Shown piece after piece: positions 26,843 through 57,182 of a stretch of 62,725 nt of DNA. The notes under the pieces are model-generated. The model ran no database searches. It saw nothing but the letters and a program-made list of their open reading frames with translations, and was not told the DNA's origin. The position numbers were made by a program, and so were the translations under genes. The DNA is from Ancylobacter lacus (lineage in GTDB: Bacteria > Pseudomonadota > Alphaproteobacteria > Rhizobiales > Xanthobacteraceae). Positions within the stretch are counted from its first letter, which is position 1; each line of letters starts with the position of its first letter. The stretch covers positions 1 to 62,725 of the forward strand of contig NZ_JAHBGE010000041.1 in the NCBI RefSeq assembly GCF_018390635.1, read 5' to 3'.

Positions 26843-27790
26843 ATGCCCGCCCCCGTGTCCTACGGCATCGCGATGCGCAACTTCACCCGCTTTCCCGAGC
26901 TGCCGGATGCGCGGGCGCTGGTGGATTACGGCGTGCGGATGGAAGCGCTCGGCTTCGAATCGCTGTGGGTGTGGGACCACATCCTGCTCGGCACCGATCC
27001 GCACTTCCCCATCATCGACTCGCTCGCGCTGCTGACGGCGGTGGCGGCACGCACCTCCACCATCCGCATCGGCACCGGCGTGCTGGTGCTGCCGCTGCGC
27101 AACCCGGTGATCCTCGCCAAGCAGCTCGCCTCGCTCGACCTCCTCAGCAATGGCCGGCTCACGCTCGGCGCGGCGGTGGGCTGGTACAAGCGCGAGTTCG
27201 ATGCGGTCGGCATCCCCTATGAGCGGCGCGGCAAGATCATGGACCGCAACCTCGAGATCCTGCGCCGGCTGTGGACCGAGGACAGCGTCACCGGCCAGTG
27301 GGACGAGCTGAACCTGCGCAACGCGGTGATGTTCCCCAAGCCGGTGCAGAAGCCGCACCCGCCGATCCTGGTCGGCGGCTATGTCGACGTCGTGCTGAAG
27401 CGCGCCGCCACCCGCGGCGACGGCTGGCTGACCTATTTCTACACCCCCGAGGGCTACCGCGAGGCCTGGGCCAAGATTTGCGCCTATGCCGAGGAGGCCG
27501 GCCGCGACCCCGCGCAGCTCGACAGCCTGAACCAGCTGCCGATCTATGTCGGCCCGCGCGAGGAGGGCCTGCCGAAGATGACGGAATGGCTCCACGCCGA
27601 GTGGGACCTCTCCAAGGGCAGCCTCTCCACCTTCGACAGCGCCATCGTCGGCACCCCGGCCGAATGCGCCGAGCAGATCGCCGCCCATATCGCGACCGGG
27701 GTGAAGAACATCGTCTTCGTGCCGTGGCGCTACGATAACGAACAGATCGACCGGCTCGCCCACGAGGTGCTGCCGCTGCTGCGGACATAG
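26843..27790 (+). CDS. F420-type LLM-class oxidoreductase
   Basis: A 315-residue luciferase-like (TIM-barrel) enzyme of the probable F420-dependent group (TIGR03619-like). Segments: LGFESLWVWDHILLGTDPHF, LLTAVAARTSTIRIGTGVLV, RNPVILAKQLASLDLLSNGR, LTLGAAVGWYKREFDAVGIP and PKPVQKPHPPILVGG. The active-site His of the family is in WVWDHILL. With FO synthase encoded convergently next door, F420H2 rather than FMNH2 is the likely cofactor, and a hydride transfer to a C=C or C=N bond the likely reaction. It is 96 bp behind the CoA-transferase genes and probably in the same operon. Confidence 0.88.
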   Translation: MPAPVSYGIAMRNFTRFPELPDARALVDYGVRMEALGFESLWVWDHILLGTDPHFPIIDSLALLTAVAARTSTIRIGTGVLVLPLRNPVILAKQLASLDLLSNGRLTLGAAVGWYKREFDAVGIPYERRGKIMDRNLEILRRLWTEDSVTGQWDELNLRNAVMFPKPVQKPHPPILVGGYVDVVLKRAATRGDGWLTYFYTPEGYREAWAKICAYAEEAGRDPAQLDSLNQLPIYVGPREEGLPKMTEWLHAEWDLSKGSLSTFDSAIVGTPAECAEQIAAHIATGVKNIVFVPWRYDNEQIDRLAHEVLPLLRT

Positions 27791-27925
27791 GCGCGGGCAG
27801 CCCGTGCGGTGCCGCGCACGCCGCGGCCCGCCTCCGGCCGGCGCACACCCCGTCAAGCCGGCCACGCCGACAGCCGCGCACGCCGACAGTCGCGGGCGTC
27901 CTGGCGGCGCAGCCCGGTAACCAAG

Positions 27926-30409
27926 TCAGCCCCGCAGCGCCTTCAGGCTGCCGATGCTCGCCAGCTTGCCCGCCGGCCGCTCCACCCGGGGCGCCAGCGC
28001 GGCGGCGGCGAAGGAGGCCCGCACCTGGCGCTCCGGCGCGTCGGCATAGAGCGTGGTGCGCGGGCGGGGAATGCGCCCGGCGGCGCGGATCACCGCTTCC
28101 ATGCGGGCCGGCGGAAACTCCTGGCCGTGCACGCCGCCCGCGGCCCGGCTGATCGATTCGTCCATCAGCGTGCCGCCGGCATCGTTCGCCCCCGCCTCCA
28201 GCGCGGCGGCAAGGCCGCCCTCGCCCAGCTTCACCCACGAGGCCTGGATGTTGATGATGAAGGGGTCCAGCGCCAGCCGGCCGACCGCGTGCATCAGCAT
28301 GGCCTCGCGCCGGCTGGGTCCGGCCCGGCTGCCGCCCTTCAGGAACAGCGGCGCTTCCATGTGGAGGAAGGGCAGGGGCACGAATTCGGTGATGCCGCCG
28401 GCTTCCGCCTGCAGCCGCCGCAGCCGGAGCAGATGCCGCGCCCAGTGGCGATAGGCATCCACATGGCCGAACATGATGGTCGAGGTGCTGCGCAGCCCGA
28501 CCCGGTGCGCGGCGGCGATGGTGTCCAGCCATTGCTGGGTGGTGAGCTTGTCGGTGCACAGCACCGCGCGCACCTCGTCGTCCAGCACCTCCGCCGCGGT
28601 GCCGGGCAGGGTGCCGAGCCCGGCCTCCTTCAGCCGCGCGAGGAAGTCGGCCACCGGCAGGCCAAGGGTCGAGGCGCCGTGCCGCACCTCCAGCGCCGAG
28701 AAGGCGTGGACATGCATCTCCGGCACCGCCGCCTTCACCGCGCGGACGATGGAAAGGTAGGTTTCGCCGGAATAGTCCGGGTGGATGCCGCCCTGCAGGC
28801 ACACCTCGGTCGCGCCGCGGGCCCAGGCCTCGCGGGCGCGGCGCTGGATTTCGCCGAGATCGAGCTCATAGGGCCGGCCGCGCAGATGCTCGGCCCCGCG
28901 CCCCTTGGAGAAGGCGCAGAAGCCGCAGCGATAGGAACAGACATTGGTGTAGTTGATGTTGCGGGTGACGACATAGGAGACCGCCTCCCCCACCCGCTCC
29001 CGCCGCAGCGCATCCGCCGCCGCGCAGACCCGGCGGGCTTCGTCGCCGCGCGCCTCGAACAGCGCGACGATGTCGCCCTCATCGAGGCCGCGGCCGGCGA
29101 AGGGGCGCTCCAGCAGCCGATCCAGCGCACGGGCGGGGCTGGCAACAGCGGGAGCGGCAATCGCCGGAGCGGCGAGGGCGGGCGCCGCCGGCCATTCCAC
29201 CACTGTGCCGCCGCTCTCCCCGACCCGCCAGCCGCTCTCATGAGCGAGTCCGCCGGCATCGGCACGGCTCAGCACCCGGGACCGCACCGCGGGGGCCAGC
29301 CAGCCCGCCGCCGCGTCGAGATGCGAGGGATAGACCGCGAGGCGCGGCGCCAGCACCTTGCCGGCGCGCGCGCTCGCCTGCGCCAGCGCGGCCAGTGCCG
29401 GCCACGGCGCCTCCGGGTTCACGTGGTCCGGCGTCACCGGGGAGACACCGCCCCAGTCGTTGATGCCGGCACCGATCAGCGCCGCCAGCCCCTCGGGCTG
29501 GAGATTGGGCGGCGCCTGTATCGACATTGCCGGCCCGAGCACCAGCCGGGCCACCGCCACGGTCCAGAGGTGGTCCTCAAGGCTTGGTTCGGCAGCGGAG
29601 GCCATCCGCGTGCCGGGCTTGGCCCGGAAATTCTGGATGATGACTTCCTGCACATGGCCGTGCCGCTCATGGGCGGCGCGGATCGCGAGCAGCGCCCCGA
29701 TCCGCTCGGCACGGGTCTCGCCGATGCCGATCAGCAGCCCGGTGGTGAACGGCACCCGGGCCCGGCCCGCCGCCTCCAGCGTCGCCAGCCGGACCTCGGG
29801 AAGCTTGTCGGGCGAACCGAAATGGGGGCCGCCCCGCGCCGAAAGCCGGGCGGCGGTGGTCTCGATCATCAGGCCCTGCGAGGCGGAAACCTCGCGCAGC
29901 GCGGCGAGCTCGGCCTCGTCCATCACCCCGGCATTGAGGTGGGGCAGCAGGCCGGTTTCCTCCATCACCCGCTTCGCCATGGCGGCGAGATAGCCGAGCG
30001 TGGAGCCATGGCCGAGGGCGGCCAGTTCCTCCCGCACCACGGCGTAGCGCCGTTCCGGCTTGTCGCCGAGGGTGAACAGCGCCTCGTCGCAGCCCATGCG
30101 GGCGCCGGCGCGGGCGATCTCCAGCACCTCGTCCGGCGTCAGGAAAGCGCGCGCGCCACGCCGGGGCGGGTGGGCGAAGGTGCAGTAGTGGCAGACGTCG
30201 CGGCAGAGCTGGGTGAGCGGAATGAACACCTTGCGGGAGACGGTGACGACCCGGCCGAAGCCGGCGTCGCGCACCCTCGCCGCGGCGGCGGCCAGCGCCG
30301 GCAGGTCACCCGCGCCGGCAAGGGCCAGCGCCTCGGCCTCGTCCAGCCGGCCGCCCCCGACCAGCCGGGCGGCGAGGCGCTCGAACGTGCCGACACCGCC
30401 CTGCGCCAT
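27926..30409 (-). CDS. fbiC: FO synthase, fused CofG-CofH
   Basis: An 827-residue two-domain radical-SAM enzyme that makes FO (7,8-didemethyl-8-hydroxy-5-deazariboflavin), the chromophore of coenzyme F420, from tyrosine and a riboflavin precursor. The CofG half carries its CX3CX2C at Cys69, 73 and 76 (LCRDVCHYCTF). The CofH half carries Cys491, 495 and 498 (NVCSYRCGFCAF). An Ala/Pro-rich linker lies around 400-430. This fused form is typical of Actinobacteria and some acquired copies in Proteobacteria. The gene begins 3 bp after the pxpA stop on the same strand, so the two are probably cotranscribed. cofC, cofD and cofE are 23-28 kb away in this window. Confidence 0.96.
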   Translation of the reverse strand: MAQGGVGTFERLAARLVGGGRLDEAEALALAGAGDLPALAAAAARVRDAGFGRVVTVSRKVFIPLTQLCRDVCHYCTFAHPPRRGARAFLTPDEVLEIARAGARMGCDEALFTLGDKPERRYAVVREELAALGHGSTLGYLAAMAKRVMEETGLLPHLNAGVMDEAELAALREVSASQGLMIETTAARLSARGGPHFGSPDKLPEVRLATLEAAGRARVPFTTGLLIGIGETRAERIGALLAIRAAHERHGHVQEVIIQNFRAKPGTRMASAAEPSLEDHLWTVAVARLVLGPAMSIQAPPNLQPEGLAALIGAGINDWGGVSPVTPDHVNPEAPWPALAALAQASARAGKVLAPRLAVYPSHLDAAAGWLAPAVRSRVLSRADAGGLAHESGWRVGESGGTVVEWPAAPALAAPAIAAPAVASPARALDRLLERPFAGRGLDEGDIVALFEARGDEARRVCAAADALRRERVGEAVSYVVTRNINYTNVCSYRCGFCAFSKGRGAEHLRGRPYELDLGEIQRRAREAWARGATEVCLQGGIHPDYSGETYLSIVRAVKAAVPEMHVHAFSALEVRHGASTLGLPVADFLARLKEAGLGTLPGTAAEVLDDEVRAVLCTDKLTTQQWLDTIAAAHRVGLRSTSTIMFGHVDAYRHWARHLLRLRRLQAEAGGITEFVPLPFLHMEAPLFLKGGSRAGPSRREAMLMHAVGRLALDPFIINIQASWVKLGEGGLAAALEAGANDAGGTLMDESISRAAGGVHGQEFPPARMEAVIRAAGRIPRPRTTLYADAPERQVRASFAAAALAPRVERPAGKLASIGSLKALRG

Positions 30410-30412
30410 CGC

Positions 30413-31189
30413 TCAGCCCGCCATCATCTCGGGAAGGGTGACGACCTTGATGCCGGCCGCCTCCACCCCCTGCCGCACCGCCGCCGCGACGGCGATGGCG
30501 GTGGGCTCGTCGCCATGGATGCAGAGCGAATCGAACCGGGTCGGCATGCGCTTGCCGTTCACCGAGATGATCTCCCCATCCTCGATCATGCGGATGGTGC
30601 GAGCGATGGCGAGCTGCGGGTCCTTGATCACCGAGCCGGCGATGGTGCGCGACTGCAGGTTGCCGTCGTCGTCATAATGCCGGTCGATGAAGGCTTCGCG
30701 GGCGAGCGGCAGGTCCAGCTTCAGCGCCGCCTTCTCCATCTCGGAATGGGAGAGGGCGAGATAATAGAGCGAGGGGTCAACGGTGCGGATCGCGCGGCCG
30801 ATGGCGAGGGCATAATCGGCATCGACCGCCGCCATGTTGTTGAGCGCGCCATGCGGCTTCACATGGGTGACCTTGGCCCCGGCATAGGCCGCCATCGCGG
30901 CGAGGGCGCCGAGCTGATAGGCCACGAGATATTCGAGGTCACTCGCGCTCATGCGGATCTGCCGGCGGCCGAAGCCCCAGACGTCGTTGAAGCCGGGATG
31001 GGCGCCGATGGAAACGCCGTTCGCCTGCGCGGCGAGGCAGACCCGCCGCATCACCGTGGGGTCGCCGGCATGCTGGCCGCAGGCGACATTGACGCTCTTC
31101 ACGATCTTCAGGATGGCATCGTCGTCGCCGATGTCATAATGGCCGTAGCCCTCGCCCATGTCGGCGTTGATGTTGATGCGCAAGGTCAC
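30413..31189 (-). CDS. pxpA: 5-oxoprolinase subunit A (LamB/YcsF family)
   Basis: A 258-residue LamB/YcsF protein, subunit A of the ATP-dependent 5-oxoprolinase PxpABC, which opens the lactam 5-oxoproline to glutamate. Family signature: INADMGEGYGHYDIGDDDAI, VNVACGQHAGDPTVMRR, VSIGAHPGFNDVWGFGRR and HVKPHGALNNMA. Start is GTG 31189. It is divergent from pxpB-pxpC and 3 bp before fbiC. In a catabolic island with Mo hydroxylases its real substrate may be another lactam made by ring oxidation (inference); a housekeeping role in 5-oxoproline repair is the alternative. Confidence 0.92.
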   Translation of the reverse strand: MTLRININADMGEGYGHYDIGDDDAILKIVKSVNVACGQHAGDPTVMRRVCLAAQANGVSIGAHPGFNDVWGFGRRQIRMSASDLEYLVAYQLGALAAMAAYAGAKVTHVKPHGALNNMAAVDADYALAIGRAIRTVDPSLYYLALSHSEMEKAALKLDLPLAREAFIDRHYDDDGNLQSRTIAGSVIKDPQLAIARTIRMIEDGEIISVNGKRMPTRFDSLCIHGDEPTAIAVAAAVRQGVEAAGIKVVTLPEMMAG

Positions 31190-31235
31190 GGCGCTCTCCG
31201 CTGCTTCATTCCTGATGATATTAACACATTAAACT

Positions 31236-31264
31236 TGCATGGCTTTCAAGCACAAAGATACTAT
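31236..31264 (+). promoter_or_regulatory. Promoter of pxpBC
   Basis: TTGCAT (31236-31241), a 17-bp spacer and TACTAT (31259-31264), 46 bp before the pxpB ATG. The -10 lies inside the operator-like dyad at 31257-31274. Confidence 0.5.
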
Positions 31265-31274
31265 CCATAGCATC
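31257..31274. promoter_or_regulatory. Candidate GntR operator B
   Basis: GATACTA-TCCA-TAGCATC is an 18-bp dyad with one mismatch per seven-base arm. It shares half-site, spacer length and total length with operator A at 23392-23409. Overlap with the pxpBC -10 suggests repression. It lies in the divergent gap, so pxpA-fbiC could be controlled as well. Confidence 0.6.
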
Positions 31275-31309
31275 ACTTCCCCAAGGGCCATCGCGCCCGC
31301 TCCCGCCGG

Positions 31310-32065
31310 ATGGAGGTTCCGCTGACGGCCCGTCTCGCCGACCTCGCGCGCTTCCTCCCCGTGGGCGACACCGCCTTCGCCATCGAATTCGGCGCGCGGA
31401 TCGACCCTGAGCTCAATGCGCGGGTGCACCGCGTCGCCGCGCTCATCGCCGCCGCCCCGCCGGCGGGGGTGACGGAGACGGTGCCGACCTTCCGCTCGCT
31501 GCTGGTGCATTACGATCCCCGGCGCGGCAGCGCGGCGGCGATCCAGCAGGCGCTGGCGACGCTGGACCTCGGCGAGGAGACCGCGGCCGGGCCGGCTCGG
31601 GTCTGGGTGCTGCCGACGCTGTATGGCGGCTCGGCCGGGCCGGACCTCGCCGACACCGCCGCCGCGCTCGGCCTGCCGCCCGAGGAGGTGGTGGCGCGCC
31701 ACGCCGCCGGCACCTACCGGGTCTACATGCAGGGCTTCCTGCCCGGCTTCGCCTATCTCGGCGACCTCGACCCCCGGCTCGACCTGCCGCGCCTCGCCAC
31801 GCCGCGGGTGCGGGTGCCGCCGGGCTCGGTCGCCATCGCCCAGCGCATGACCGGGGTCTATCCCCTCGAATCGCCCGGCGGCTGGCGGCTGATCGGCAAC
31901 ACCCCGGTGCGCTTCTTCGACGCCGCCCGCACGCCCCCCACCCTGTTCAGCCCCGGCGACGGCGTGCGCTTCGCACCCGTCGGGCCGGAAGAGCACGCCG
32001 CCATCCGCGCCGCCGTGGCCGCCGGCGCCTTTGAGCCCCCGCGCGAGAAGGCGACGGCCCCATGA
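31310..32065 (+). CDS. pxpB: 5-oxoprolinase subunit B (KipI family)
   Basis: A 251-residue PxpB/KipI (allophanate hydrolase subunit 1) protein. Conserved parts are LPVGDTAFAIEFGARIDP at the N-terminus, VTETVPTFRSLLVHYDP, HAAGTYRVYMQGFLPGFAYL and VPPGSVAIAQRMTGVYP with the cyclophilin-like core and ESPGGWRLIGNTP. It acts with PxpC and PxpA in ATP-dependent lactam hydrolysis. Its stop overlaps the pxpC start by 4 nt. The start at 31310 is the only ATG in reach, although the GGAGG just inside it suggests that initiation a few codons later cannot be excluded. Confidence 0.92.
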   Translation: MEVPLTARLADLARFLPVGDTAFAIEFGARIDPELNARVHRVAALIAAAPPAGVTETVPTFRSLLVHYDPRRGSAAAIQQALATLDLGEETAAGPARVWVLPTLYGGSAGPDLADTAAALGLPPEEVVARHAAGTYRVYMQGFLPGFAYLGDLDPRLDLPRLATPRVRVPPGSVAIAQRMTGVYPLESPGGWRLIGNTPVRFFDAARTPPTLFSPGDGVRFAPVGPEEHAAIRAAVAAGAFEPPREKATAP

Positions 32066-33138
32066 GCCCGACCCCTGCCGGAGACACGAGCCCGATCCCT
32101 GCCGGAGGCACGCTCCGCATTCTGCAGCCCGGGCCGCAGACCACGGTTCAGGACCTCGGCCGGTTCGGCTGGCAGGCCCTCGGCGTGTCGAGCTGCGGCG
32201 CGCTCGACCCGGTGGCGCTGCGCCTCGCCAACGCGCTAGTCGGCAACGATGAATCCGCCGCGGCGCTGGAATGCCGCCTCGCCGGCCCGGCCTTCGAGGT
32301 GACCGGCGGCACGGCGCGGCTCGCCCTCGGCGGGGCCGAGGTCACCATCGTGGTCGAGGCGGACGGCGCCAGCACAACTTATCCGGCGTGGCGGGCCTTC
32401 GACGCGCCGGCCGGGGCGGTGGTGCGGGTTGGCGCGCTGCGCGGCAGCGGCTGCGCGGTGCTTGCGGTGGCCGGCGGCCTGCCGGTGGCGCCGGTGCTGG
32501 GCTCGCGCGCCACCGACCTCAAGGGCGGCTTTGGTGGGCATGAGGGTCGGGCGCTGCGGGCCGGCGACACCCTTCCCTTTTCGCCGGCGTCGCTGCCCGG
32601 ACCGTGCCTCGAACTGCCGGAGCCGCCCTCCCTCGCCTTCGCCGGCACGCTGCGGGTGGTGCCGGGGCCGCAGGCCGAAGCGTTCACGGCGGAGGCGATG
32701 GCGACCTTCCTGTCGGCCCCCTACGCGGTGACGCGCGAGGCCGACCGCATGGGCATGCGGCTTGCGGGGCCTGCGCTCGGCTTCGTCGCCGGGGCCGACA
32801 TCGTGTCGGACGGCATCGCCACCGGCTCGATTCAGGTGCCGGGTTCGGGCCAGCCGATCGTGCTGCTGGTCGACCACCAGACCATCGGCGGCTACGCCAA
32901 GATCGCGACGGTGATCTCCGCGGACCTGCCCGCGGCAGGACGACTGCTGCCGGGCGCGACCGTCCGCTTCGAGGCCGTGAGCGTGGAGGCGGCGGAGGAG
33001 GCGCGGCGAGCGCAGGAGCGCGAGATCACCCGGCAGATCGGCACGCTGGCGCCGGTGCGGGCGGCGGCCGCCATCGACCTCGCCGCGCTGCTGGAACGCA
33101 ACCTCGTCTCCGGCGTGGTCAGCGCCTTCGACGATTAA
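32062..33138 (+). CDS. pxpC: 5-oxoprolinase subunit C (KipA family)
   Basis: A 358-residue PxpC/KipA (biotin-dependent carboxyltransferase-like, allophanate hydrolase subunit 2) protein. Signature: RILQPGPQTTVQDLGRFGWQ, GVSSCGALDPVALRLANALV and, late, SDGIATGSIQVPGSGQPIVL plus DHQTIGGYAKIATVI. The first 17 residues contain a short imperfect repeat (SPTPAGDT/SPIPAGGT) that looks like a recent duplication. ATG overlaps the pxpB stop. With PxpB it forms the catalytic complex that works with PxpA. Confidence 0.93.
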   Translation: MSPTPAGDTSPIPAGGTLRILQPGPQTTVQDLGRFGWQALGVSSCGALDPVALRLANALVGNDESAAALECRLAGPAFEVTGGTARLALGGAEVTIVVEADGASTTYPAWRAFDAPAGAVVRVGALRGSGCAVLAVAGGLPVAPVLGSRATDLKGGFGGHEGRALRAGDTLPFSPASLPGPCLELPEPPSLAFAGTLRVVPGPQAEAFTAEAMATFLSAPYAVTREADRMGMRLAGPALGFVAGADIVSDGIATGSIQVPGSGQPIVLLVDHQTIGGYAKIATVISADLPAAGRLLPGATVRFEAVSVEAAEEARRAQEREITRQIGTLAPVRAAAAIDLAALLERNLVSGVVSAFDD

Positions 33139-33290
33139 CCCCGCAAAACCGGGCCTCGATCCGCACGGGACGGTCGAATCATAGGATAACGTGATACAGA
33201 AGATAGACCTTCTCGTTGATTCCGCCCCTCCCGCCGCGGCCCCGATTGCCGGCCGACCGGGACAGGCCCTCGCCGGACACGACGCCCGCC

Positions 33291-34046
33291 ATGCCCAAGG
33301 ACGCCTCGGCCCTCGCCAGCCCGGACTATCGCCGCAGCCCGGTGCCGCGCTACCTGCAGATCGCCGGGGTGATCCGCCGCCGGATCGAGGACGGGGTCTG
33401 GCGGCCGAACGAGAAGATATCGACCCTCCAGGAGCTTGAGGCGGAGTTCAAGGTGGCGCGCGTCACCGTCCGCCAGGCTGTCGAGGTGCTGCAGGACGAG
33501 GGGCTGGTTCGCCGCATCCAGGGCAAGGGCACCTTTGTCTCGGCGCAGGTGGAGGAAAAGCGCTGGCTGAAGCTGGACCTCAAATGGCGCTCTCTGGCCG
33601 GCACCATCGGCATGAACGTGCCGCGCTTCCTCCCCGTCACCACCCCGCCGCCGGCACCGCCGCTGCGGGCGGAAGATGGCGTGCCGGCGCAGGACTACCG
33701 CTATTTCGAGAGCGTTCAGTCCCGCCGTGGCCAGCCCTATTCCTTCGCCCGGGTGCATCTGGCAGAAGAGATCTACCAGCGCGCCATCGACCGCTTCGGC
33801 CGCGAGCCCACCATCGCGGTGGTCGCCAGCCTTGAGGGCCTCGCGGTGAAGCGGGCGCGGCAGTCCTTCATCGTCGGCACGGTGGAGCCGCGCATCGCCA
33901 ATCTTCTCGCCATTGGCATCGGCTTTCCCACGGTCGAGGCCCATCTGGTCGTGGTCGACGAGAACGACGTGGTGATCTATGTCGCCGACATCATCTACCG
34001 CGGCGACTGCGTGCAGCTCGACGTCGACCTGCTCAGGGGCGACTAG
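33291..34046 (+). CDS. GntR-family regulator with UTRA domain
   Basis: A 251-residue HutC/FarR-type GntR regulator. The winged helix covers about residues 15-80 (VPRYLQIAGVIRRRIEDGVW, NEKISTLQELEAEFKVARVT, RQAVEVLQDEGLVRRIQGKG, TFVS). A UTRA ligand-binding domain follows to the end (YFESVQSRRGQPYSFARVHL, VHLAEEIYQRAIDRF). ATG 33291 is preferred over an upstream ATG at 33216 because the added residues are not GntR-like. It lies between pxpC and the second Mo-hydroxylase operon and is the only regulator gene of the 21-41 kb island. It probably binds the dyads at 23392 and 31257. Confidence 0.92.
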   Translation: MPKDASALASPDYRRSPVPRYLQIAGVIRRRIEDGVWRPNEKISTLQELEAEFKVARVTVRQAVEVLQDEGLVRRIQGKGTFVSAQVEEKRWLKLDLKWRSLAGTIGMNVPRFLPVTTPPPAPPLRAEDGVPAQDYRYFESVQSRRGQPYSFARVHLAEEIYQRAIDRFGREPTIAVVASLEGLAVKRARQSFIVGTVEPRIANLLAIGIGFPTVEAHLVVVDENDVVIYVADIIYRGDCVQLDVDLLRGD

Positions 34047-34076
34047 CCAAATCCTTGATTTCGCTTGATTTTTCGC

Positions 34077-35257
<1,181 letters not shown>

Positions 35258-35261
<4 letters not shown>

Positions 35262-36058
35262 GCGTGGGCGCCTTCCCCTGTGGCGGCCGCCAGCGCCTCG
35301 CGCACCACGGTGCGGAACAGCCGGGCCCTTGCCGGGTCCTCGGTGAGGCCGGCGCCGGCAAGCGCGGCCTCGACGGAATCCAGCGTTTGCAAGCCTTCCA
35401 GCACGATGTGCCGGGCCTCGGTGGCGCCGATGACGAGGCGCGCCACCCCGCGCGGCGGGTCCAGCAATACCGCCGCCATGGCCTCGGCGAACTCGCCGAC
35501 CTTGCGGCAGGACTTGCGATAGCCCCAGCGGGCCTGCGGCGAGAGGCGCGGCACGAACACCCCGGCGAGGATTTCGCCCTCTCCCAGCGCCGTGTCGAAG
35601 GCGCCGCGCAGGAAGTCGCGCAGCGGCATCTCGCGGTGGCGGGTCGGTGCGGTGAGGTGGACGATGGCGCCGAGCGCGGTGAGTGTGACCGGCCAGTCCG
35701 CCGCCGGGTCGGCATGGGCGAGGCTGCCGCCGAGCGTACCCCGGTTGCGCACCGCGCGGTAGGCGATGCCGTGGGCGATGGCGGGCAGGATTCCCCCGGT
35801 GGGGTCGGGCACCGCGCGGTCCTCGAACTCGGCATGGGTGATGCCGGCGCCGTAGAGCACGCCCTCCGGCCGCTCCTCGACGCGGCGCAGCTCGGGCAGG
35901 CGGCCGACCTCCACCAGCGCGGCGGGGCGGGCGAGCCGCAGGTTCAGCATCGGGCCGAGGCTCTGGGCGCCGGAGACCGGCCGCGCCCCCCCGGCGAGCA
36001 GCGGCAGCGCCGCCGCCAGCGTTGCCGGGCGGTGATAGTCGAACGCCGCCGCCTTCAT
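35258..36058 (-). CDS. Molybdenum hydroxylase FAD subunit, set 2
   Basis: A 266-residue CoxM-type FAD subunit: MKAAAFDYHRPATLAAALPL, GARPVSGAQSLGPMLNLRLA (FAD pyrophosphate loop) and VRNRGTLGGSLAHADPAADW (second FAD loop). The C-terminal domain begins near residue 165. It overlaps both neighbours by 4 nt: the large-subunit stop upstream and the fused 2Fe-2S/CoxG start downstream. That shows a coupled three-gene operon and a complete heterotrimer for this set. Confidence 0.93.
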
Positions 36059-38445
36059 CGGGCCGCCTCCGCCGCCGCGCCGGCCCGCACCAGCGCCTCG
36101 CGCACCCGGCGCGGGGTCATGGGGCAGGTGGTGAGCTCGGCGCCCAGGCCGGCGAGGGCGTCGTTGATGGCGTTGCCGATGGCCGCGGGCGGGGCGATGG
36201 CGCCGCCCTCGCCGATGCCCTTCTGCCCGAAGCGGGTATTGGGCGAGGGCGTCTCCATGTGGGCGATCCGCACCGGGGGCATCTCGCCGGCGCCGGGCAG
36301 CAGGTAGTCGGCGAGGGTGGAGGCCAGCGGCTGGCCGTTGGCGTCGTACACCATCTCCTCATACAGCGCGGTGCCGATGCCCTGGGCGGTGCCGCCATAG
36401 ATCTGGCCGTCCACCACCATCGGGTTCAGCAGCACGCCGCCATCCTCGACGATGACGTAGTCGAGGATCTCGACCTCGCCGGTGCCGGGCGCCACCGCGA
36501 CCACGGCGGCGTGGCTGGCATAGGAGAAGGTGCCGGTGTCGACCGCCGGGCGATAGCCGGCGACGAGGTCGAGCCCGTCGGGATTGGCGTCGGCCGGCAG
36601 GTTCTGCGGCGCGCGGTAGAAGGTGTGGGCGATCTCGCGCAGGCTCACCGAGCCCTGCGGCCCCACCACCCGCGCCGCCTCCAGCCGCACCGCCTCGCGG
36701 GGCGCCTGCAGCAGATGCGCGCCGATCGCCTTGACCCGCTCGGCCATCTGCTCGCAGGCGCTGGCCACCGCGCCGCCCGCCATCACCGCCGAGCGCGAGC
36801 CCCAGGTGCCGGTGGAATAGGGCGTCAGCGCGGTGTCGCCATGCACCACATTCACCTTCGCCGGGTCGATGCCGAGGATTTCGCAGGCGATCTGCGCCAG
36901 CGTGGTCTCCATGGACTGGCCGTGGCTCTGGTTGCCGACACGGATTTCCAGCGTGCCGTCCGGCGTCAGCCGGGCGCCGCACTGCTCGAAGCCGGGCACC
37001 ATGGGAATGCCCCAGCCGTGATAGACCGAGGTGCCGTGGGCGCCCTGCTCGCAATAGACGGCGTAGCCGATGCCGATGCGGCGGCCATCGGCCTCGCCGC
37101 CGGCCTGCCGGGCCCGCACCGCGGCGTCCCCGATCATCTCCCGCGCCCGCCGCAGGCTCTCGGGATAGTCGCCCATGTCGAAATCCTTGCCGGTGATGGA
37201 GCGGAACGGCATCCGCTCCGGGCCGACGAGGTTGCGCAGCCGCACCTCCACAGGGTCGAGCCCGGCCTCCCGCGCCACCGCCTCCACCATGAACTCGATG
37301 GCGGTGCACACGCCGGTGCGGGCGACACCGCGATAGGGCACGATGGGCGGCTTGTTGGAGCACACCGACAGCGCCCGGCAGCGATAGGCCGGAATGTCGT
37401 AGGGACCCGGCAGGTTGGAGACCACCTGCGCGCCTTCGAGGCAGGCGGAGAAGGGGTAGACCGAATAGGCGCCGGCATCGACATGGGCCAGCGCGTCGAG
37501 GCCGAGGATGCGGCCTTCCGCATCGGCCCAGGCGGTCATCTCGTAATGGTGCTCGCGGCAGTTGGCGGCGGCGATGAGGTGCTCGCGCCGGTCCTCCAGC
37601 CACTTGATCGGGCGGTCGAGCCTCAAGGCCGCCCAGGCGCAGCACACCTCCTCCGGCTGCAGCAGGCCCTTCCAGCCGAAGCCGCCGCCGACATCGGGCG
37701 CCACCACCCGCACCTGCCGCTCCTCCAGCCCCAGGCACTCGGCGAGGCCGGAGCGCACGATGTGCGGCATCTGGGTGGAGGTCCACAGGGTGAGCTGCTC
37801 GACATGGCGCTCGTGCAGGGCAATGCAGCCCTTGCCCTCCAGCGGGGCCATGCACTGGCGCGAGGTGCGCACCGTGCGCGTCACCTTCACCGGGGCGGCG
37901 TCGAGGACGGCGCGGCTGGCCTCGAAGTTCTTCTCCGCCTGCGAGACGAGGAACACGTTCTCCGGCCAGTCCTCATGGATCAGCGCCGCGCCGGGGGCGA
38001 CCGCGCCGAGCATGTCGTGATTGGCCGGCAGCTCCTCGAACTCGACGGTGATGGCCTCCACCAGATCTTCCGCCTCGGCCCGGGTGGCCGCCAGCACCAT
38101 GACGATGGGCTCGCCGGCGAAGCGCACCTTGTCGGCGGCGAGCGAGGGCTGGGCGGAAACCCGGAAGCCGGGCAGCCCCGTCTTCGCCAGAATGTCCTTC
38201 ACCCCCACCATGTCGGCATGGGTGAAGGCCCGCCCCGCCAGATGCGGGGGAATGTGGATGGCGCGGATGCGGCCATGGGCGATGGGCGCGCGGTAGAAGG
38301 CGGCTTCGAGCTGGCCTGGAAATCGCATGTCGCCGATGAAGCGGCCACGGCCTTCCAGCAGCCGGGCATCCTCCTTGCGCGGCACCGAGGCACCGACGCC
38401 GCGGGAGACGGCTTCACCCTTCAACCTGCTGTCTGCGGCAGCCAT
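36055..38445 (-). CDS. Molybdenum hydroxylase large subunit, set 2
   Basis: A 796-residue molybdopterin-binding subunit of the xanthine oxidase/CoxL family. VAPDVGGGFGWKGLLQPEE (about 249-267) and GRIGIGYAVYCEQG-like segments bind the cofactor. The active-site loop reads PYRGVAR (370-376), unlike both form I (AYxCSFR) and form II (AYRGAGR) CO-dehydrogenase-like loops, and the catalytic Glu is in GIGEGGAIAPPAA near the C-terminus. The lack of the form I loop argues against CO oxidation, so an N-heterocycle or aldehyde substrate is more likely. ATG 38445 is chosen for the GAGG 6 nt upstream. It is the first gene of its operon and divergent from the second large subunit. Confidence 0.93.
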   Translation of the reverse strand: MAAADSRLKGEAVSRGVGASVPRKEDARLLEGRGRFIGDMRFPGQLEAAFYRAPIAHGRIRAIHIPPHLAGRAFTHADMVGVKDILAKTGLPGFRVSAQPSLAADKVRFAGEPIVMVLAATRAEAEDLVEAITVEFEELPANHDMLGAVAPGAALIHEDWPENVFLVSQAEKNFEASRAVLDAAPVKVTRTVRTSRQCMAPLEGKGCIALHERHVEQLTLWTSTQMPHIVRSGLAECLGLEERQVRVVAPDVGGGFGWKGLLQPEEVCCAWAALRLDRPIKWLEDRREHLIAAANCREHHYEMTAWADAEGRILGLDALAHVDAGAYSVYPFSACLEGAQVVSNLPGPYDIPAYRCRALSVCSNKPPIVPYRGVARTGVCTAIEFMVEAVAREAGLDPVEVRLRNLVGPERMPFRSITGKDFDMGDYPESLRRAREMIGDAAVRARQAGGEADGRRIGIGYAVYCEQGAHGTSVYHGWGIPMVPGFEQCGARLTPDGTLEIRVGNQSHGQSMETTLAQIACEILGIDPAKVNVVHGDTALTPYSTGTWGSRSAVMAGGAVASACEQMAERVKAIGAHLLQAPREAVRLEAARVVGPQGSVSLREIAHTFYRAPQNLPADANPDGLDLVAGYRPAVDTGTFSYASHAAVVAVAPGTGEVEILDYVIVEDGGVLLNPMVVDGQIYGGTAQGIGTALYEEMVYDANGQPLASTLADYLLPGAGEMPPVRIAHMETPSPNTRFGQKGIGEGGAIAPPAAIGNAINDALAGLGAELTTCPMTPRRVREALVRAGAAAEAAR

Positions 38446-38586
38446 GGACGCCTCGAACAACCCCTTGTGCGACGCACTATCTTATTAGACTATCATCGAT
38501 ATCAAGCCCTGCGTGCTGATCTTCTCACAAATAGTACCAAGTGCAACCGGCCGGCCGCTTCAGCCGGCGAGAGTGGAGAAAGCCTG
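38446..38586. promoter_or_regulatory. Divergent promoter region between two Mo-hydroxylase large subunits
   Basis: This 141-bp AT-rich gap must serve both genes. ACTATC occurs twice 13 bp apart (38470s-38490s), and a half-site TAGTACC like that of operator A lies near 38535. No full dyad of the 23392/31257 type is present, so control by the same regulator is uncertain. Confidence 0.4.
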
Positions 38587-44678: not shown

Positions 44679-45851
44679 TCAGGCACCGGCAGGCAGTTGC
44701 TCGCTCGGCGGCAGCCAGGCGTTGATGGCGGCGGAATTCGTCACGAGGTCGGCGGAGTGGCTCGCCTGCGCCCGCGCTTCGGCCATCATGAGACGCCGGT
44801 AGCTCGGCTGGAAGCGCGGGATGACGTGGCGGGCGAAGAGTTCGTAGTGGCGCAGCGTCGCCTCGCGGTTCGCCCAGTCATGGGCGAGCATGAGGATGCA
44901 GCCGAAATCGCCCGCCCGCGCCGCGAGGCGGGTGAGGAAGGCGATGGCGTCGTCGGGCGTGCCGATCACGCCGATGCCGCCCTCGTTCATCCAGGCGATC
45001 CGCTCCTCGAAGCTGTCGCCCTGCGCGGTGATGGCCGGCATGGCGATGGTCTTCTGGGTGTAGTCGCAGAAATGATCGAAGCCGTGGCGCAGATCGGCGA
45101 CGGCCTGTTCGCGGGTCTCCGCCACATGCACGTTCACCACCAGCCGCCAGCGCGCGGGGTCGGGCACATGGCCATGGGCGCGGGCCTCCTGCGCATAGAC
45201 GTCCCAGTGCAGCGGCGGGGCCGGCATGCCTTCCCTGGGCGAGATGACGCCGGTGGAGAGCAGGCCGAGCCCATGGCGCCCGGCGATGCGCGGCCCGGCC
45301 TCCGAGCGGGTGGCGGCGACGCAGACATCGAACAGCGGGTCGCTGTGCGGGGCGAGCTGGCAGAACGCCTCGTGCAGCGTGTAGCGCGCGGTCTTCACGC
45401 TCACCGGATCGGTGCTGGTGAGCAGCTTCATCAGCACGCCGAGATCATGGTCGAGCGCCGGGCGCAGCTCGCGCGGGTCGAGCCCGAACATGGTGGCGTC
45501 GCTCGGCAGCCCGCCGGGACCGAAGCCGGCCATGAAGCGCCCGCGCAGCAGATGGTCCATCAGGATCATCCGCTCGGCGACATGGTAGGGGTTGTGGTAG
45601 GGCAGCGGCACGATGCCGGTGCCGAGCCGGATGCTGCGGGTGAGCGCCGCCGCATGGGCGAGGAAGATCATCGGATCGGCGATGATCTCGCTGCCGGCCG
45701 AGTGGTGCTCGCCGACCCAGGCCTCGTCATAGCCCAGCGCGTCGATCCACTGGATGGTCTCCAGATTGCGCTGGAGCGAGGTGGTGATGTTCTGGGTGGG
45801 CGGCGAATTCCACGGCGGCATGAAGATGCCGAAGCGCGTCTTGCGCATCAT
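44679..45851 (-). CDS. LLM-class flavin-dependent monooxygenase
   Basis: A 390-residue luciferase-like enzyme: FGIFMPPWNSPPTQN, ALGYDEAWVGEHHSAGSEII (active-site His pair), RLGTGIVPLPYHNPYHVAER and GRFMAGFGPGGLPSDATMFG. Length and the EHHSAGSE motif resemble FMNH2-dependent monooxygenases such as limonene 1,2-monooxygenase or alkanal monooxygenase more than F420 enzymes. FmdA-like and GMC genes flank it in the same direction; its stop is 10 bp from the next start. In this F420-rich neighbourhood F420H2 as cofactor cannot be excluded. Confidence 0.88.
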   Translation of the reverse strand: MMRKTRFGIFMPPWNSPPTQNITTSLQRNLETIQWIDALGYDEAWVGEHHSAGSEIIADPMIFLAHAAALTRSIRLGTGIVPLPYHNPYHVAERMILMDHLLRGRFMAGFGPGGLPSDATMFGLDPRELRPALDHDLGVLMKLLTSTDPVSVKTARYTLHEAFCQLAPHSDPLFDVCVAATRSEAGPRIAGRHGLGLLSTGVISPREGMPAPPLHWDVYAQEARAHGHVPDPARWRLVVNVHVAETREQAVADLRHGFDHFCDYTQKTIAMPAITAQGDSFEERIAWMNEGGIGVIGTPDDAIAFLTRLAARAGDFGCILMLAHDWANREATLRHYELFARHVIPRFQPSYRRLMMAEARAQASHSADLVTNSAAINAWLPPSEQLPAGA

Positions 45852-45858
45852 TTCGACC

Positions 45859-52732: not shown

Positions 52733-52841
52733 ACAGGAAACGCGGCGCGTGCCGGCGGGCCGATCGCCACCGGATGCTCAAGAATTCAGCCGCCCGGGCG
52801 GGGTTGGCGCGTTAATGAGCGGCACCCCGCTTCCCCAGCGG

Positions 52842-53582
52842 TCATGCGGCTCGGCGGGCGATGTCGTCGAGCCGCGCCGCCAGCGCGTCCGGGGCGGACA
52901 GGAAGGGTGAATGGTCGCCCTCCAGCGTGAACACCGCCTCGCAGGGGGTGCGCGCGGTCATGGCGCGCTGATAGGCGAGGGAAACGGCGTTGTCGCGCGT
53001 GCCCTCGATGTAGAAGCGCCGCACCGTGCCGAACCGCGCCGCGGTGAGGTTCAGCGGGTCGCGGTAGACCTTCATGCGCTGCGGGGTCAGGCGGGCGGCG
53101 GCGAAGGCGGCATCGGCGGGGCTGCAGGTGTTGTAGAACACCGCGCCCGCCGCGGCGGCGGGAAAGGTCGCGGTCTCGCCGTCCGGGGCGACCTGCATGT
53201 TCGCCAGCACGAGGTCCTCGACCCCGAGATGGGCGTGGGCGTCGAGAAAGCCGACCAGCGTCTCCCCGGCGCGGAACAGCAGCCCGTTGAGATAGACCGT
53301 GGCGGCGAGGCGGTGCGGCAGGTTCTCGCTCACCTGCGCGCTGACGATGCCGCCCATGCTGTGGCCGACCAGGATGACCTTGCCGGGCCGCGCCTCGATC
53401 GCCTCGCCCACCCGCGCGGCATAGCCGGCGAGATCGGCGGAGGCGAGCGGGGCGGGGTCGCCGCCGCTCGCCGGGAGGTTGGGCGCCATCACCCGATGGC
53501 CCAGCGCCTCCAGCCGGGGCACCAGCTTCTGCCAGCACCAGTTGCCGTGAAACGAACCATGCACGAGGACGAAATCGGCCAT
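52842..53582 (-). CDS. Alpha/beta hydrolase, esterase type
   Basis: A 246-residue alpha/beta hydrolase close in form to the methylesterase/hydroxynitrile lyase group. Oxyanion motif FVLVHGSFHGNWCW (about 4-17), nucleophile elbow VGHSMGG (Ser about 74) and late Asp/His (IEGTRDNAVS, LEGDHSPFLS). It lies between cofC and the importer operon, 101 bp after cofC. The likely function is hydrolysis of a small ester; the substrate is not evident. Confidence 0.88.
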   Translation of the reverse strand: MADFVLVHGSFHGNWCWQKLVPRLEALGHRVMAPNLPASGGDPAPLASADLAGYAARVGEAIEARPGKVILVGHSMGGIVSAQVSENLPHRLAATVYLNGLLFRAGETLVGFLDAHAHLGVEDLVLANMQVAPDGETATFPAAAAGAVFYNTCSPADAAFAAARLTPQRMKVYRDPLNLTAARFGTVRRFYIEGTRDNAVSLAYQRAMTARTPCEAVFTLEGDHSPFLSAPDALAARLDDIARRAA

Positions 53583-53683
53583 GGGGGCTCTCCTGGTGGC
53601 TCAATGAGGCAGGGTCGGCGACGGGTCGGTCGCACGGCGGTGGGTGGCGCCGGCCTGGGCAGGCCGCGTCCGGCGGGGCGCGC

Positions 53684-54418
53684 TCAGCCCGGCCGCGGCA
53701 GCAGCGCGGCCTCCGCCGCCAGCAGCCGCCGGGTGCCGCGTGTGGCGGGAAGGCCGGCGAGCCGGGCGAGATCGGCGGGAAGGTCGACGTCGAAGGCGAT
53801 GCCCGGCAGCTCCGCCGCGCCATGGAGGCGGGGCGTGATCCCGGCCCGCGCGGCGGCGGCGCAATGGCGCGCGAAGCTCGCCGGCCCGAAGGCGAAGCGC
53901 AGCAGGCTCGGCGGCGAGACCAGCAGCGCGCAGGTGCCCTCCCCGTCATGGGCGGGAACGAGGCTCACCGCCGGGGTGCCGTCATGGCCGGCGAGCAGGC
54001 GGGCGATGTCCTCCGAGGCCACCGCGGGAATGTCGCCGGGCACCACCAGCACGCCGGCCGCGCCCCGCCCGGCGAGGTCGGCGGCGGCCCGCCGCAGCGC
54101 CGCGTTCAGCCCGCGCGCCTGCGGCTCGGCGATGACGCAGGCACCCAGCGCCTCGGCCATCGCCGCCGCCTCGGCATCGGCGGTCACCACCGCGACGCCG
54201 GCCAGCTCGCGCACCTCGACCAGCGCGGCGAGCACGTCGTCGAGCATCGCCCGGGCGAGGCGGGCGCGCTGTGCCGGGGCCAGCGCCGGGGCCAGCCGCC
54301 GCTTGGCCGCGGCGAAGGGCTTCACCGGCACCACGGCCCAGACGCCGGAGGCGCCGGGCGCCGCCCCGCCACGGCCAGCCCCGCCGCAGCCCGCCCCGCC
54401 GCGGCCCTGCCCGCTCAT
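53684..54418 (-). CDS. cofC: F420-0 guanylyltransferase (CofC/FbiD family)
   Basis: A 244-residue nucleotidyltransferase that activates the F420 side-chain precursor with GTP: 2-phospholactate in archaea, phosphoenolpyruvate in mycobacteria (FbiD), 3-phosphoglycerate in Paraburkholderia. VWAVVPVKPFAAAKRRLAP (about 26-44) is the GTP-binding start, VPGDIPAV the metal-site Asp motif. The first 24 residues are Gly/Ala-rich and probably disordered. The gene overlaps cofD by 4 nt. Which precursor this enzyme prefers cannot be read from the sequence. Confidence 0.9.
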   Translation of the reverse strand: MSGQGRGGAGCGGAGRGGAAPGASGVWAVVPVKPFAAAKRRLAPALAPAQRARLARAMLDDVLAALVEVRELAGVAVVTADAEAAAMAEALGACVIAEPQARGLNAALRRAAADLAGRGAAGVLVVPGDIPAVASEDIARLLAGHDGTPAVSLVPAHDGEGTCALLVSPPSLLRFAFGPASFARHCAAAARAGITPRLHGAAELPGIAFDVDLPADLARLAGLPATRGTRRLLAAEAALLPRPG

Positions 54419-55362
54419 GCCGGCCGGCCCGCCAGCGCGAGCACGACGCGGGCCAGCGCGGTCCTGTCGTCGAGGCTGCGCATCAGGGTCGGCGCGGCGT
54501 GCACCGCCATGCCCTCGGGAACCGCGACGCCGGCATCAGCCTCGTCCACCACGAGGATGTCGACCAGCCCGGCATAATGGGCGGCGACGGTCGCCGCGCC
54601 CGGCTCCAGCCCCAGCTCGCGCATCATCTTTGCGGTCGGCCCCTTCACCGCCTGCCCGGCGATGATCGGCGAGACCGCCACCACCGGCACCCGGCGCCGC
54701 GCCAGCGCGGCGCGGATGCCCGGCACGGCGAGGATGGGGTCGATCGACAGATAGGGATTGGACGGGCACAGCACGATCGCCGCCAGCGCGGGATCGGCGA
54801 GGGCGGCGGCGACGGCGGGCGCCATGCGCGCCTCGGCCGCCCCGGCGAAGTCGAGCGCCTCCACCGCCGGCTCGCAGCGCCGGCCGACGAAATAGGGCTG
54901 GAAGTCCAGCCAGCCCTCCTCCCGCGTCTTCACCCGGGTGCGCACCGGGTCGTCGCTCATCGGCAGGATGGCGGAGGCGATGCCGAGCCGGGCGCGGAAC
55001 CGCTCGGTGATCTCGGACAGCGTCAGCCCCTGCGCCAGCAGCCGGGAGCGCTCGACATGGGTGGCGAGGTCGCCGTCGCCGAGCAGGAACCAGTCCTCCC
55101 CGCCCAGCGCCTTCAGCGCCGCCATGAAGGTCCAGGTTTCCTCGCGGCGGCCCCAGCCCTTCACCGGGTCGTCGAGCCCGGCAAGGGTGTAGAGCAGGGT
55201 GTCGACATCGGGCGAGACGTGCAGGCCGAGATGGACGAAATCGTCGCCCGTATTGGCGAGGACGGAAAGCGCGCCGGGCGGCAGCACCCGGTCCAGCCCC
55301 AGCGCCAGCTTGGCGCCGCCGATGCCGCCCGAGAGGGCGAGGATGCGGAAGGGTGGGCTCAT
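54415..55362 (-). CDS. cofD: 2-phospho-L-lactate transferase (CofD/FbiA)
   Basis: A 315-residue CofD protein that joins the activated phospho-ligand to FO, giving F420-0 or dehydro-F420-0. [17 protein letters not shown] (about 7-23), [20 protein letters not shown] (about 34-53), [16 protein letters not shown] and [18 protein letters not shown] are the family's signature motifs. ATG overlaps the cofE stop and the gene overlaps cofC, so all three are coupled. It acts in the cytoplasm after FbiC. Confidence 0.96.
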
Positions 55363-56132
55363 CGGAACAGGTCCTCATGCTCGGGCCGCACCAGATCGCG
55401 CGCGGCGCCGTGCGGGGCGGTGGGGGCGAGGCCGCGCAGCACGGCGGCGGGGCGGCCCTCGTCGCCCTGCCCCATCACCAGCGAGGCGGCGGCGGCGATC
55501 TCGTCGGCATGGCCGATCATCGTGACCTGAAGCGGGCGGCCGAACAGGTCGGGCTCGCCGCGGCGGTCGACCAGCGCGGCGAGGCCGGCGGCCCCCACGG
55601 CGATGCCCATGGTGCCGCGCCGCCAGGCCCGGCCGAAGCTGTCATTGATGACCACGGCCAGCTCGACCCCGGCCCGCGCGGCCAGCGTGGCCCGCAGCGC
55701 GGCGGCGCTGGCGTCGGGATCGGCCGGCAGGAGGAGCGCCAGCTCCCGCCCGTCGGCCTCGACATTGGAACGGTCGATGCCGGCATTGGCCATGACGAAG
55801 CCCAGCCGGTGCTCGACGATGAGCACGCCCGGCCGCGCCCGCACCACGCGGCGGCTCTCGCCCAGCACCAGCTCGACGAAGCGCGGGTCCTTCTCCACCA
55901 CGGCGGCAAGCTCGCGCGCGGCGGGCGAGGGTGAGACGTCGGCGAGATCCACCAGCCGGCCCTCGGCCTTGGAGACGATCTTCTGCGCCAGCACCACCAC
56001 GTCGCCGGCGGCCGGCACCCGCGCGGCGCGGCCATAGCCCTCCAGCACCAGCGCGGCGAGATCGTCGCCCGGCCGCACCAGCGGCAGGCCGGGAAGGGCG
56101 AAGAGATCGAGTGCCTGCGGGCCGAACGTCAC
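55359..56132 (-). CDS. cofE: F420-0:gamma-glutamyl ligase (CofE)
   Basis: A 257-residue CofE that adds gamma-linked glutamates to F420-0 with GTP. Visible motifs are [39 protein letters not shown] and [20 protein letters not shown], followed by [18 protein letters not shown]. It lacks the C-terminal nitroreductase-like domain found in actinobacterial FbiB, which reduces dehydro-F420-0. So the pathway either uses a precursor that needs no such reduction (phospholactate or 3-phosphoglycerate) or has a separate reductase elsewhere. First of the cofE-cofD-cofC trio. Confidence 0.95.
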
Positions 56133-56177
56133 GCCACCGCTCCTGAAAACCCCGGGGGAACCGCCGCGCCCGCCGGC

Positions 56178-57182
56178 TCAGCCATAGGCGGCGCGCAGCC
56201 GCGGAAGCACCTCGGCGGAATAGAGCCGCAGGAACCGCTCCTGGTCGGCCCCCGGAGCATGGAACACCAGATGGCGGAAGCCCAGCGCGATGTAGGCGCC
56301 GATCTTCTCGACATGCTCGTCGGGATCGGTGGAGACGATCCAGCGCTTCGCGGTGCGCTCGGCCGGCAGCGCGTCGGCGAGGCGCTCCATCTCCAGCGGG
56401 TCCTCGACGCTCATCTTCTCCTCGGCCGAGAGCGCCAGCGCCGCCCACAGCCGGGTGTCCTCGCGGGCGCGGGCGAGGTCGGTGTCGAAGGACACCTTCA
56501 TCTCGATCATGCGGTCATAGCCGGCGCCGTCGCGGCCGGAGGCCGCCAGCCCCTCCGCCACATTGGGCAGCAGCGTTTCGGTATAGAGGTCCCAGCCCTT
56601 GCCGGAGGTGCAGATGAAGCCGTCGCCGGCACGGCCGGCATATTTGGCGATCATCGGTCCTGCGCCGGCTATGTAGATCGGCACCGGCTGGTCCGGCCGG
56701 TCATAGATGGTGGCGCCCTCGGTGCGGTAATACTCGCCCTCGAAGGTCACGCGCTCCTCGCTCCAGAGCTGGCGGATGAGGCGGACCGCCTCGCGCAGCC
56801 GGGCGAAGCGCTCCTTCATCTCCGGCCAGGGCCCGCCGGTGGCCGGCACCTCGTTGAGCGATTCGCCGGTGCCGACCCCGAGGATGACGCGGCCGGGGAA
56901 CATCTGGCCCAGTGTGCCGAAGGCCTGCGCCACCATGGCCGGGTGGTGGCGGAAGGTGGGGGTGAGCACGCTGGTGCCCATGATGATGCGGGAGGTGGAG
57001 GCGCCCAGCGCGCCGAGCCAGGCCAGCGCCGCCGGCGCGTGCCCGCCGGTGTGCCGCCAGGGCTGGAAATGGTCGCTCACGAACACCGAGTCGAAGCCCG
57101 CCCGTTCTGCCGCAACCGCGAAATCGAGCAGGCGGCGGGCGTCGAACTGTTCCGCAGATGCTTTGTAGCCCAGCTTCAGCAC
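56178..57182 (-). CDS. fgd: F420-dependent glucose-6-phosphate dehydrogenase
   Basis: A 334-residue LLM-family enzyme that closely follows the mycobacterial Fgd1 sequence. [28 protein letters not shown] (catalytic His38, Trp42), [20 protein letters not shown] (acidic residue Glu106), [19 protein letters not shown] (phosphate-binding Lys) and [20 protein letters not shown] are shared. Expected reaction: glucose-6-phosphate plus F420 to 6-phosphogluconolactone plus F420H2. Start is GTG 57182 with GGAGGAGGA about 10 nt upstream. It is the first gene of the array and directly followed by cofE, so F420 synthesis and reduction are encoded together. Confidence 0.93.

Follow-up and report, generated by a model that had tools for sequence, protein, structure and literature searches.

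Actinobacteria degrade picrate and dinitrophenol with F420-dependent enzymes. A 2021 review lists the Alphaproteobacteria among F420 producers, predicts Fgd in addition to Fno there and records trace amounts of F420 in Oligotropha and Paracoccus; in its accessible portions it states that no F420-dependent enzyme has been investigated in non-actinobacterial producers, and that the role of the cofactor needs experiments (PMC8498797). Here we describe a window of 62,725 nt (the whole stretch of DNA that was analysed, a contig within the 4.63-Mb, 99.6% complete draft genome of Ancylobacter lacus) in which F420 genes are split over two loci: fbiC lies within a catabolic cluster (locus 1, 23472-38460), and fgd, cofE, cofD and cofC form an operon (locus 2). 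We consider it moderately probable that F420H2 from Fgd drives one reduction in the breakdown of a nitrogen heterocycle, with a luciferase-like (LLM) oxidoreductase of locus 1 (26843-27790, plus strand) as its main user.

Orthologs of this LLM (E <= 1e-90 in the class and phylum genomes) occur in 6 of 385 evenly drawn alphaproteobacterial genomes, our own included, and all six also have CofD, which is found in 58 of the 385. The chance of this agreement is p = 9e-6, or 6e-5 for the five other genomes alone, values that serve as guides, the genomes not being independent. The ortholog was not found in the 397 genomes that the phylum sample adds. In two genomes (G007 and G312) the F420 genes are adjacent to the LLM module and in three (G060, G200 and G229) the two are on different contigs, therefore tight linkage is not the cause of the co-occurrence there. 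As a control we used the second LLM of the window (44679-45851, minus strand), whose relatives (E <= 1e-80) occur in 41 genomes, 20 of them with CofD; it is thus enriched, with half of its carriers lacking CofD. The co-occurrence supports the prediction that the LLM at 26843 uses F420, and together with the synteny described below it bears out the conserved association that the initial annotation had proposed to look for in related genomes. The rarity of F420 in Proteobacteria, which it also claimed, proved too strong a statement in view of the 58 CofD genomes and the known producers named in the accessible portions of PMC8498797. The second LLM stands between a formamidase and a GMC oxidoreductase; in another Ancylobacter locus (L033) the formamidase and a GMC-like gene (named by eye) are separated by one small gene, leaving no room for this LLM.

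Within the genome, 30 luciferase-like proteins pass the Pfam cut-off (a 31st, weak match was dropped, and the FDOR-B families lie outside this census). Two score over an F420-family cut-off, namely Fgd and the LLM at 26843, 23 pass cut-offs for FMN or other LLM families (18 of these being of the NtaA/DmoA type), and five pass none at the limits used. The nearest named proteins of the LLM at 26843 belong to several Ancylobacter (87-90%).

The LLM belongs to a cluster that begins, on the plus strand, with a fold-type II enzyme dependent on pyridoxal phosphate (PLP; PALP, 23472-24968; cysteine-synthase/beta-cyanoalanine-synthase fold). Its structure model fits the cyanoalanine-synthase fold, a group that acts via aminoacrylate, and the enzyme is likely a beta-eliminating lyase. 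Next come the subunits of a glutaconate CoA-transferase-like enzyme, CoAT_A (24973-25935; PF01144) and CoAT_B (25925-26746), whose closest solved structures are 1poi_A and 1poi_B (1e-46 each). In an alignment with subunit B of glutaconate CoA-transferase, Glu71 of CoAT_B pairs with a Glu that we take to be the active-site residue; with both subunits nearest 1poi and this Glu kept, the pair classes with glutaconate CoA-transferase, its substrate being predicted. An IpdAB-like ring hydrolase was rejected, since glutaconate CoA-transferase outscores the IpdAB chains and the Glu is conserved. The LLM, a proposed F420H2-dependent reductase, completes this group. On the minus strand, a PxpA-like lactamase subunit (30413-31189; NF003814, 333 against a cut-off of 226 bits) precedes fbiC with the same orientation and a gap of 3 bp, and is followed on the plus strand by PxpB-like (31310-32065; TIGR00370, 174 against 146 bits) and PxpC-like (32062-33138; TIGR00724, 284 against 230 bits) subunits and a GntR-type regulator (33216-34046; PF00392). 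The cluster ends with a molybdenum hydroxylase on the minus strand: a small subunit fused to a CoxG domain (CoxSG, 34077-35261; PF01799 and PF06240), which has homologs of similar length (403-409 aa) in Rhodospirillaceae bacterium SYSU D60014 (locus L080) and Sinorhizobium, a FAD subunit (CoxM, 35258-36058; PF00941) and a large subunit (CoxL, 36055-38460). The closest solved structure to CoxL is quinoline 2-oxidoreductase (1t3q, 481 bits), so that its likely reaction is the oxidation of an N-heterocycle at the position next to the nitrogen. Carbon monoxide oxidation was rejected (TIGR02416, carbon monoxide dehydrogenase, 467 against 991 bits). A second molybdenum hydroxylase large subunit (38587-40881, plus strand; PF01315/PF02738/PF20256), inside a longer open frame, stands back to back with CoxL.

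We then compared locus 1 with gene neighbourhoods elsewhere, which include the best 80 of 508 confirmed CofD loci from a collection of named records; because some contigs in this set are short, a gene missing from them counts as a tentative absence. In L080 the order and relative directions of the genes from PALP to GntR are those of the window, with one difference, namely that npdG, cofE, cofD and cofC are inserted between pxpA and fbiC. The molybdenum hydroxylase genes follow GntR in both, as an inverted block. PALP, CoAT_A, CoAT_B and the LLM form a fixed unit in the window, L080, L135, L136, L137 and L138 (the contig of L139 starts just before the LLM), and fbiC or an F420 set adjoins the LLM module in the window, L080, L135, L139 and Sinorhizobium. 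Homologs of the GntR regulator occur in the clusters of L080, Cupriavidus numazuensis (L093) and Sinorhizobium. Two positions are occupied by different enzymes in different loci. The lactamase position holds PxpABC in the window, L080, L093 and L137, PxpB and PxpC in L135 (whose contig stops there), and in L139 a fused hydantoinase A/B; the PLP-enzyme position holds PALP in six loci and, in Sinorhizobium, a diaminopropionate ammonia-lyase that has a 46% relative in L093. Beyond the initial annotation, this places the molybdenum hydroxylase, PxpABC and GntR together with FbiC and the LLM in one conserved set.

The gene order also offers a possible explanation for the two loci. The window looks like an L080-like arrangement minus its npdG-cof segment, the functions of which the fgd-type operon, at a distance of 23 kb, would provide, and the split may record such a swap. 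Arrival of the window FbiC with the cluster was not supported: an FbiC tree (quick method, 48 rows) points elsewhere and gives no backing to a shared origin of the two.

Two alternatives bear directly on these comparisons. The better-surviving one, which we regard as possible though on the unlikely side, is that F420 serves as a general redox cofactor with several unrecognised users, and that fbiC came to lie beside catabolic genes by chance rearrangement. It accommodates the 52 of 58 CofD genomes that lack the LLM, the five luciferase-like proteins over no curated cut-off and the FDOR-B families outside the census, but it does not predict that fbiC or an F420 set should adjoin the LLM module in five settings, nor that no LLM should be found without CofD in the class sample. 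Somewhat less likely still, the LLM could be an FMN-dependent monooxygenase that co-occurs with CofD through shared lifestyle or joint transfer. Its closest solved structure is indeed an FMN enzyme, and the second LLM is partly enriched with CofD too (20/41). The fold of the LLM model ties with both FMN and F420 enzymes, and structure was dropped as a means of deciding between them. Against an FMN enzyme stand the TIGR03619 cut-off, which is passed by the LLM of the window as well as by those of L080 and of pSymA of S. meliloti R28 (L124), and the 6/6 co-occurrence, which in three of those genomes involves F420 genes on a contig separate from that of the LLM.

The capacity to make and reduce F420 was assessed with NCBIfam models and their curated cut-offs, and all F420 genes of both loci are open frames. 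FbiC, the fused CofG-CofH FO synthase (27926-30409, minus strand), scores 1130 against 1018 bits with NF006687, exceeds the cut-offs of both the CofG and CofH domain models, is the sole copy over the CofG cut-off in the genome and has CX3CX2C motifs conserved at both residue 69 and residue 491. At locus 2, all on the minus strand, CofC (53684-54418; TIGR03552, 162 against 105 bits), CofD (54415-55362; TIGR01819, 295 against 257 bits; single copy in the genome) and the single-domain F420-0:glutamate ligase CofE (55359-56132; TIGR01916, 282 against 181 bits) are joined by 4-bp overlaps between cofC and cofD and between cofD and cofE, and fgd lies 45 bp upstream (56178-57182, frame open to 57221; TIGR03554, 509 against 420 bits). 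The closest solved structure to Fgd is M. tuberculosis Fgd1 (1e-144), and the segments SDHFQPW, TGE, SGKG, EEK and AKRW align with the Fgd1 active-site segments, with residue roles that we take as given. These scores uphold the identities and places that the initial annotation had assigned to the five genes, and the TIGR03619 score of the LLM (210 against 167 bits) does the same for its membership of an F420-type family. The description of the system as complete held in part: FO synthase, CofC, CofD and CofE, the members of the F420 biosynthesis pathway, are all over curated cut-offs, but no protein of the genome passes the FbiB C-terminal model for dehydro-F420 reductase (best match 61 against 250 bits). 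That match adjoins cobS/cobT-like genes (named by eye) and is probably BluB. Dehydro-F420 reductase is needed if phosphoenolpyruvate is the precursor, and a non-homologous enzyme may be present in this genome. F420 of the 3-phosphoglycerate type was dropped, because the residues that mark such CofC proteins (Ser or Thr plus His, in the accessible text of PMC8764529) are not found in the window CofC, which has Glu at the His position, while its Ser position holds Phe in the alignment, or Gly if one counts back from the conserved His. In the same text, CofC of Paracoccus and Oligotropha preferred 2-phospholactate (PMC8764529).

Among the 80 CofD loci, fgd is present in 61 and stands directly upstream of cofE in 55, therefore locus 2 is an ordinary proteobacterial operon; npdG occurs in four, never together with fgd. 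The operon is common to three Ancylobacter loci (L033-L035), of which L033 also shares the ABC transporter genes and formamidase adjoining locus 2 in the gene map listed, and the nearest named protein to CofD is that of Ancylobacter sp. 6x-1 (83%). No link between locus 2 and degradation was found. The proposal in the initial annotation that F420 serves degradation is therefore retained for locus 1 alone, where co-occurrence, synteny and the LLM census speak for it. A proteobacterial-looking fgd-cofE-cofD cluster (CofD 65%, Fgd 75%) was also seen in a metagenome-assembled genome labelled Planctomycetota (L036), which may reflect transfer or a binning error.

Taken as a pathway, the genes at 23472-38460 would work as follows. 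F420 would be made by FbiC with CofC, CofD and CofE and reduced by Fgd with glucose-6-phosphate, and F420H2 would be used mainly by the LLM. The molybdenum hydroxylase would turn a nitrogen heterocycle into a cyclic amide by oxidation, after which the LLM would reduce a ring double bond with F420H2. PxpABC would use ATP to open the reduced lactam, the PLP lyase would take off an amino group by beta-elimination, and the glutaconate-CoA-transferase-like enzyme would activate the acid product for beta-oxidation. GntR would regulate the pathway, and the position of fbiC behind pxpA would allow the cofactor to be made when the pathway is on. In the swap envisaged above, the npdG-cofE-cofD-cofC set found at pxpA/fbiC in L080 would be replaced here by the fgd-cofE-cofD-cofC operon. 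The gene identities over curated cut-offs, the single copies of FbiC and CofD, the synteny with L080, the 6/6 association, the joint occurrence of the LLM and FbiC on plasmids described below, the 2/30 census, the lack of any Fno match in this genome and the exchange of enzymes at the lactamase and PLP positions support such a scheme at the level of comparative genomics.

The lactamase step admits another explanation, about as unlikely as an FMN-dependent LLM, in which PxpABC is an ordinary 5-oxoprolinase, either because 5-oxoproline is the ring intermediate or because the fbiC-pxpA adjacency merely links glutamate supply to the F420 tail. The PxpA subfamily and PxpB equivalog cut-offs are passed, and F420 carries glutamates, which is established biochemistry. 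PxpABC and hydantoinase A/B are both ATP-dependent lactam hydrolase families that include 5-oxoprolinases; as the latter replaces the former in L139, this explanation gains weight and reduction of an N-heterocycle loses slightly. On the other hand, PxpC misses its equivalog cut-off (224 against 500 bits), three PxpA equivalog models are not reached, the Sinorhizobium block as mapped lacks PxpABC, and glutamate supply alone leaves the LLM, CoA-transferase and PLP genes unexplained. A caprolactamase related to 5-oxoprolinase and inactive on 5-oxoproline is on record, according to the accessible text of PMC6061476. As to named substrates, nicotinate was set aside since the Azorhizobium route, alike in gene set, uses a homolog of 6-hydroxynicotinate reductase (accessible text of PMC3511419), a gene not searched for here, and isonicotinate/citrazinate since no F420 paper was among the matches listed.

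To follow the LLM module on mobile DNA, we surveyed 72,556 plasmid records. FbiC (E <= 1e-60) was found on 58. Twelve of these 58, and no other record, gave a match to the LLM (E <= 1e-40); all are from Sinorhizobium (ten S. meliloti, two S. fredii), so that they share a genus and are not independent cases. Of 135 CoAT_B matches, those on these 12 plasmids alone exceed 60% identity, the next best being 46% among the matches listed. A 24.7-kb block of strain GR4 is mostly present on all 12. Its gene content, read in five plasmids (L124, L192, L193, L197 and L198), comprises npdG, cofE, cofD, cofC, fbiC, CoAT_A, CoAT_B and the LLM, together with dihydroorotase, a Liv transporter, an M20 deacylase, pntAB, CoxL, CoxM, CoxSG, a binding protein, diaminopropionate ammonia-lyase and GntR. 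FbiC, CofC, CofD, CofE, CoAT_A/B, the LLM, CoxL/M/SG and GntR thus have homologs in the window, whereas the block differs in having npdG and no fgd, dihydroorotase and M20 deacylase with PxpABC absent as mapped, diaminopropionate ammonia-lyase instead of PALP, and in addition pntAB and the Liv-type transporter. The dihydroorotase scores as a true dihydroorotase; that it and the M20 deacylase take part in the pathway is a guess. In L124 the diaminopropionate ammonia-lyase (27570-28763) is interrupted as deposited and intact in other strains.

An association study of nodule competitiveness, which shows no cause, placed its top k-mers largely on pSymA, especially in a 26-kb region carried by only GR4, KH35c and KH46 among 13 strains; in its accessible text, the fbi operon and the transporter, pyrimidine, glutamate and amino-acid genes are discussed as separate functions and validation is called for (PMC8407117). 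The pSymA records of GR4, KH46 and KH35c carry the block, and 14 of 22 rows of Table 2 of that study fit its genes by name, the other rows not. From strains, size and content, rather than coordinates, we infer that the 26-kb region is the Sinorhizobium block. It is tempting to speculate that the substrates of the cluster are non-protein amino acids of plants, beta-(N-heterocyclyl)alanines or the like, degraded by an unnamed F420-dependent pathway, partly on conjugative symbiosis plasmids, that is a cause of nodule competitiveness in S. meliloti, but we hold this to be the least likely of the possibilities considered so far. The PLP enzyme (of cyanoalanine-synthase or diaminopropionate-lyase type) would then release the ring, the molybdenum hydroxylase would oxidise it, the LLM would de-aromatise it with F420H2, an interchangeable cyclic-amide hydrolase would open it and CoA transfer would lead to beta-oxidation.

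Several related genes were noted on other plasmids. PALP relatives on Bosea (L194) and Rhizobium (L195) plasmids each have a TauE/SafE gene and an M20 hydrolase nearby, and in one case RidA and gamma-glutamyltransferase as well; neither stretch has an annotated F420 gene. Molybdenum hydroxylase relatives on Geminicoccaceae, Methylobacterium and Azospirillum plasmids (L199, L200 and L201) are accompanied by Liv transporters and by genes for an amidohydrolase, an amidase or HpxZ, again with no F420 gene annotated in these stretches. Plasmid 2 of Aromatoleum EbN1 and a Sphingobium plasmid (L125 and L196) carry F420 genes close to those for acyl-CoA dehydrogenase and thiolase, a degradation setting different from locus 1. 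Elsewhere in the window, an HpaB-type 4-hydroxyphenylacetate 3-hydroxylase family protein and a flavin reductase (13220-15171, minus strand) have a LysR regulator and, likewise in the vicinity, an NMT1-type ABC transporter, and a PIN-domain protein (546-1219, minus strand) has a small upstream gene that looks by eye like an antitoxin.

Altogether, the candidates for an F420 role that emerge are a single enzyme, a single regulator and a single gene cluster, in a genus with named isolates, and most genes of a competitiveness region earlier read as unrelated functions can be brought under one proposed explanation. Among the papers listed in the literature within our reach (most subscription journals and supplements lay outside it), we found no description of this cluster as one F420 pathway. 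The actinobacterial degradation of picrate and dinitrophenol shares with the proposed pathway an F420H2-dependent reduction inside a degradation route, whereas its reductases and gene sets differ. Oligotropha carboxidovorans and Paracoccus denitrificans, compared here by description rather than by genome, belong to the same class and synthesise F420, with Fgd predicted in alphaproteobacterial producers; in contrast, the accessible portions of the sources assign no specific role to F420 there, and a Fno match is absent here (PMC8498797, PMC8764529). The reductive nicotinate pathway of Eubacterium barkeri and Azorhizobium is alike in its ring hydroxylation, ring reduction and hydrolytic opening but, in the accessible texts, its reductase is a 6-hydroxynicotinate reductase homolog (PMC3511419, PMC9304392), whereas the window cluster has the LLM. 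The parts of locus 1 are known and their arrangement is new, and a role for F420 in degradation is supported by comparison.
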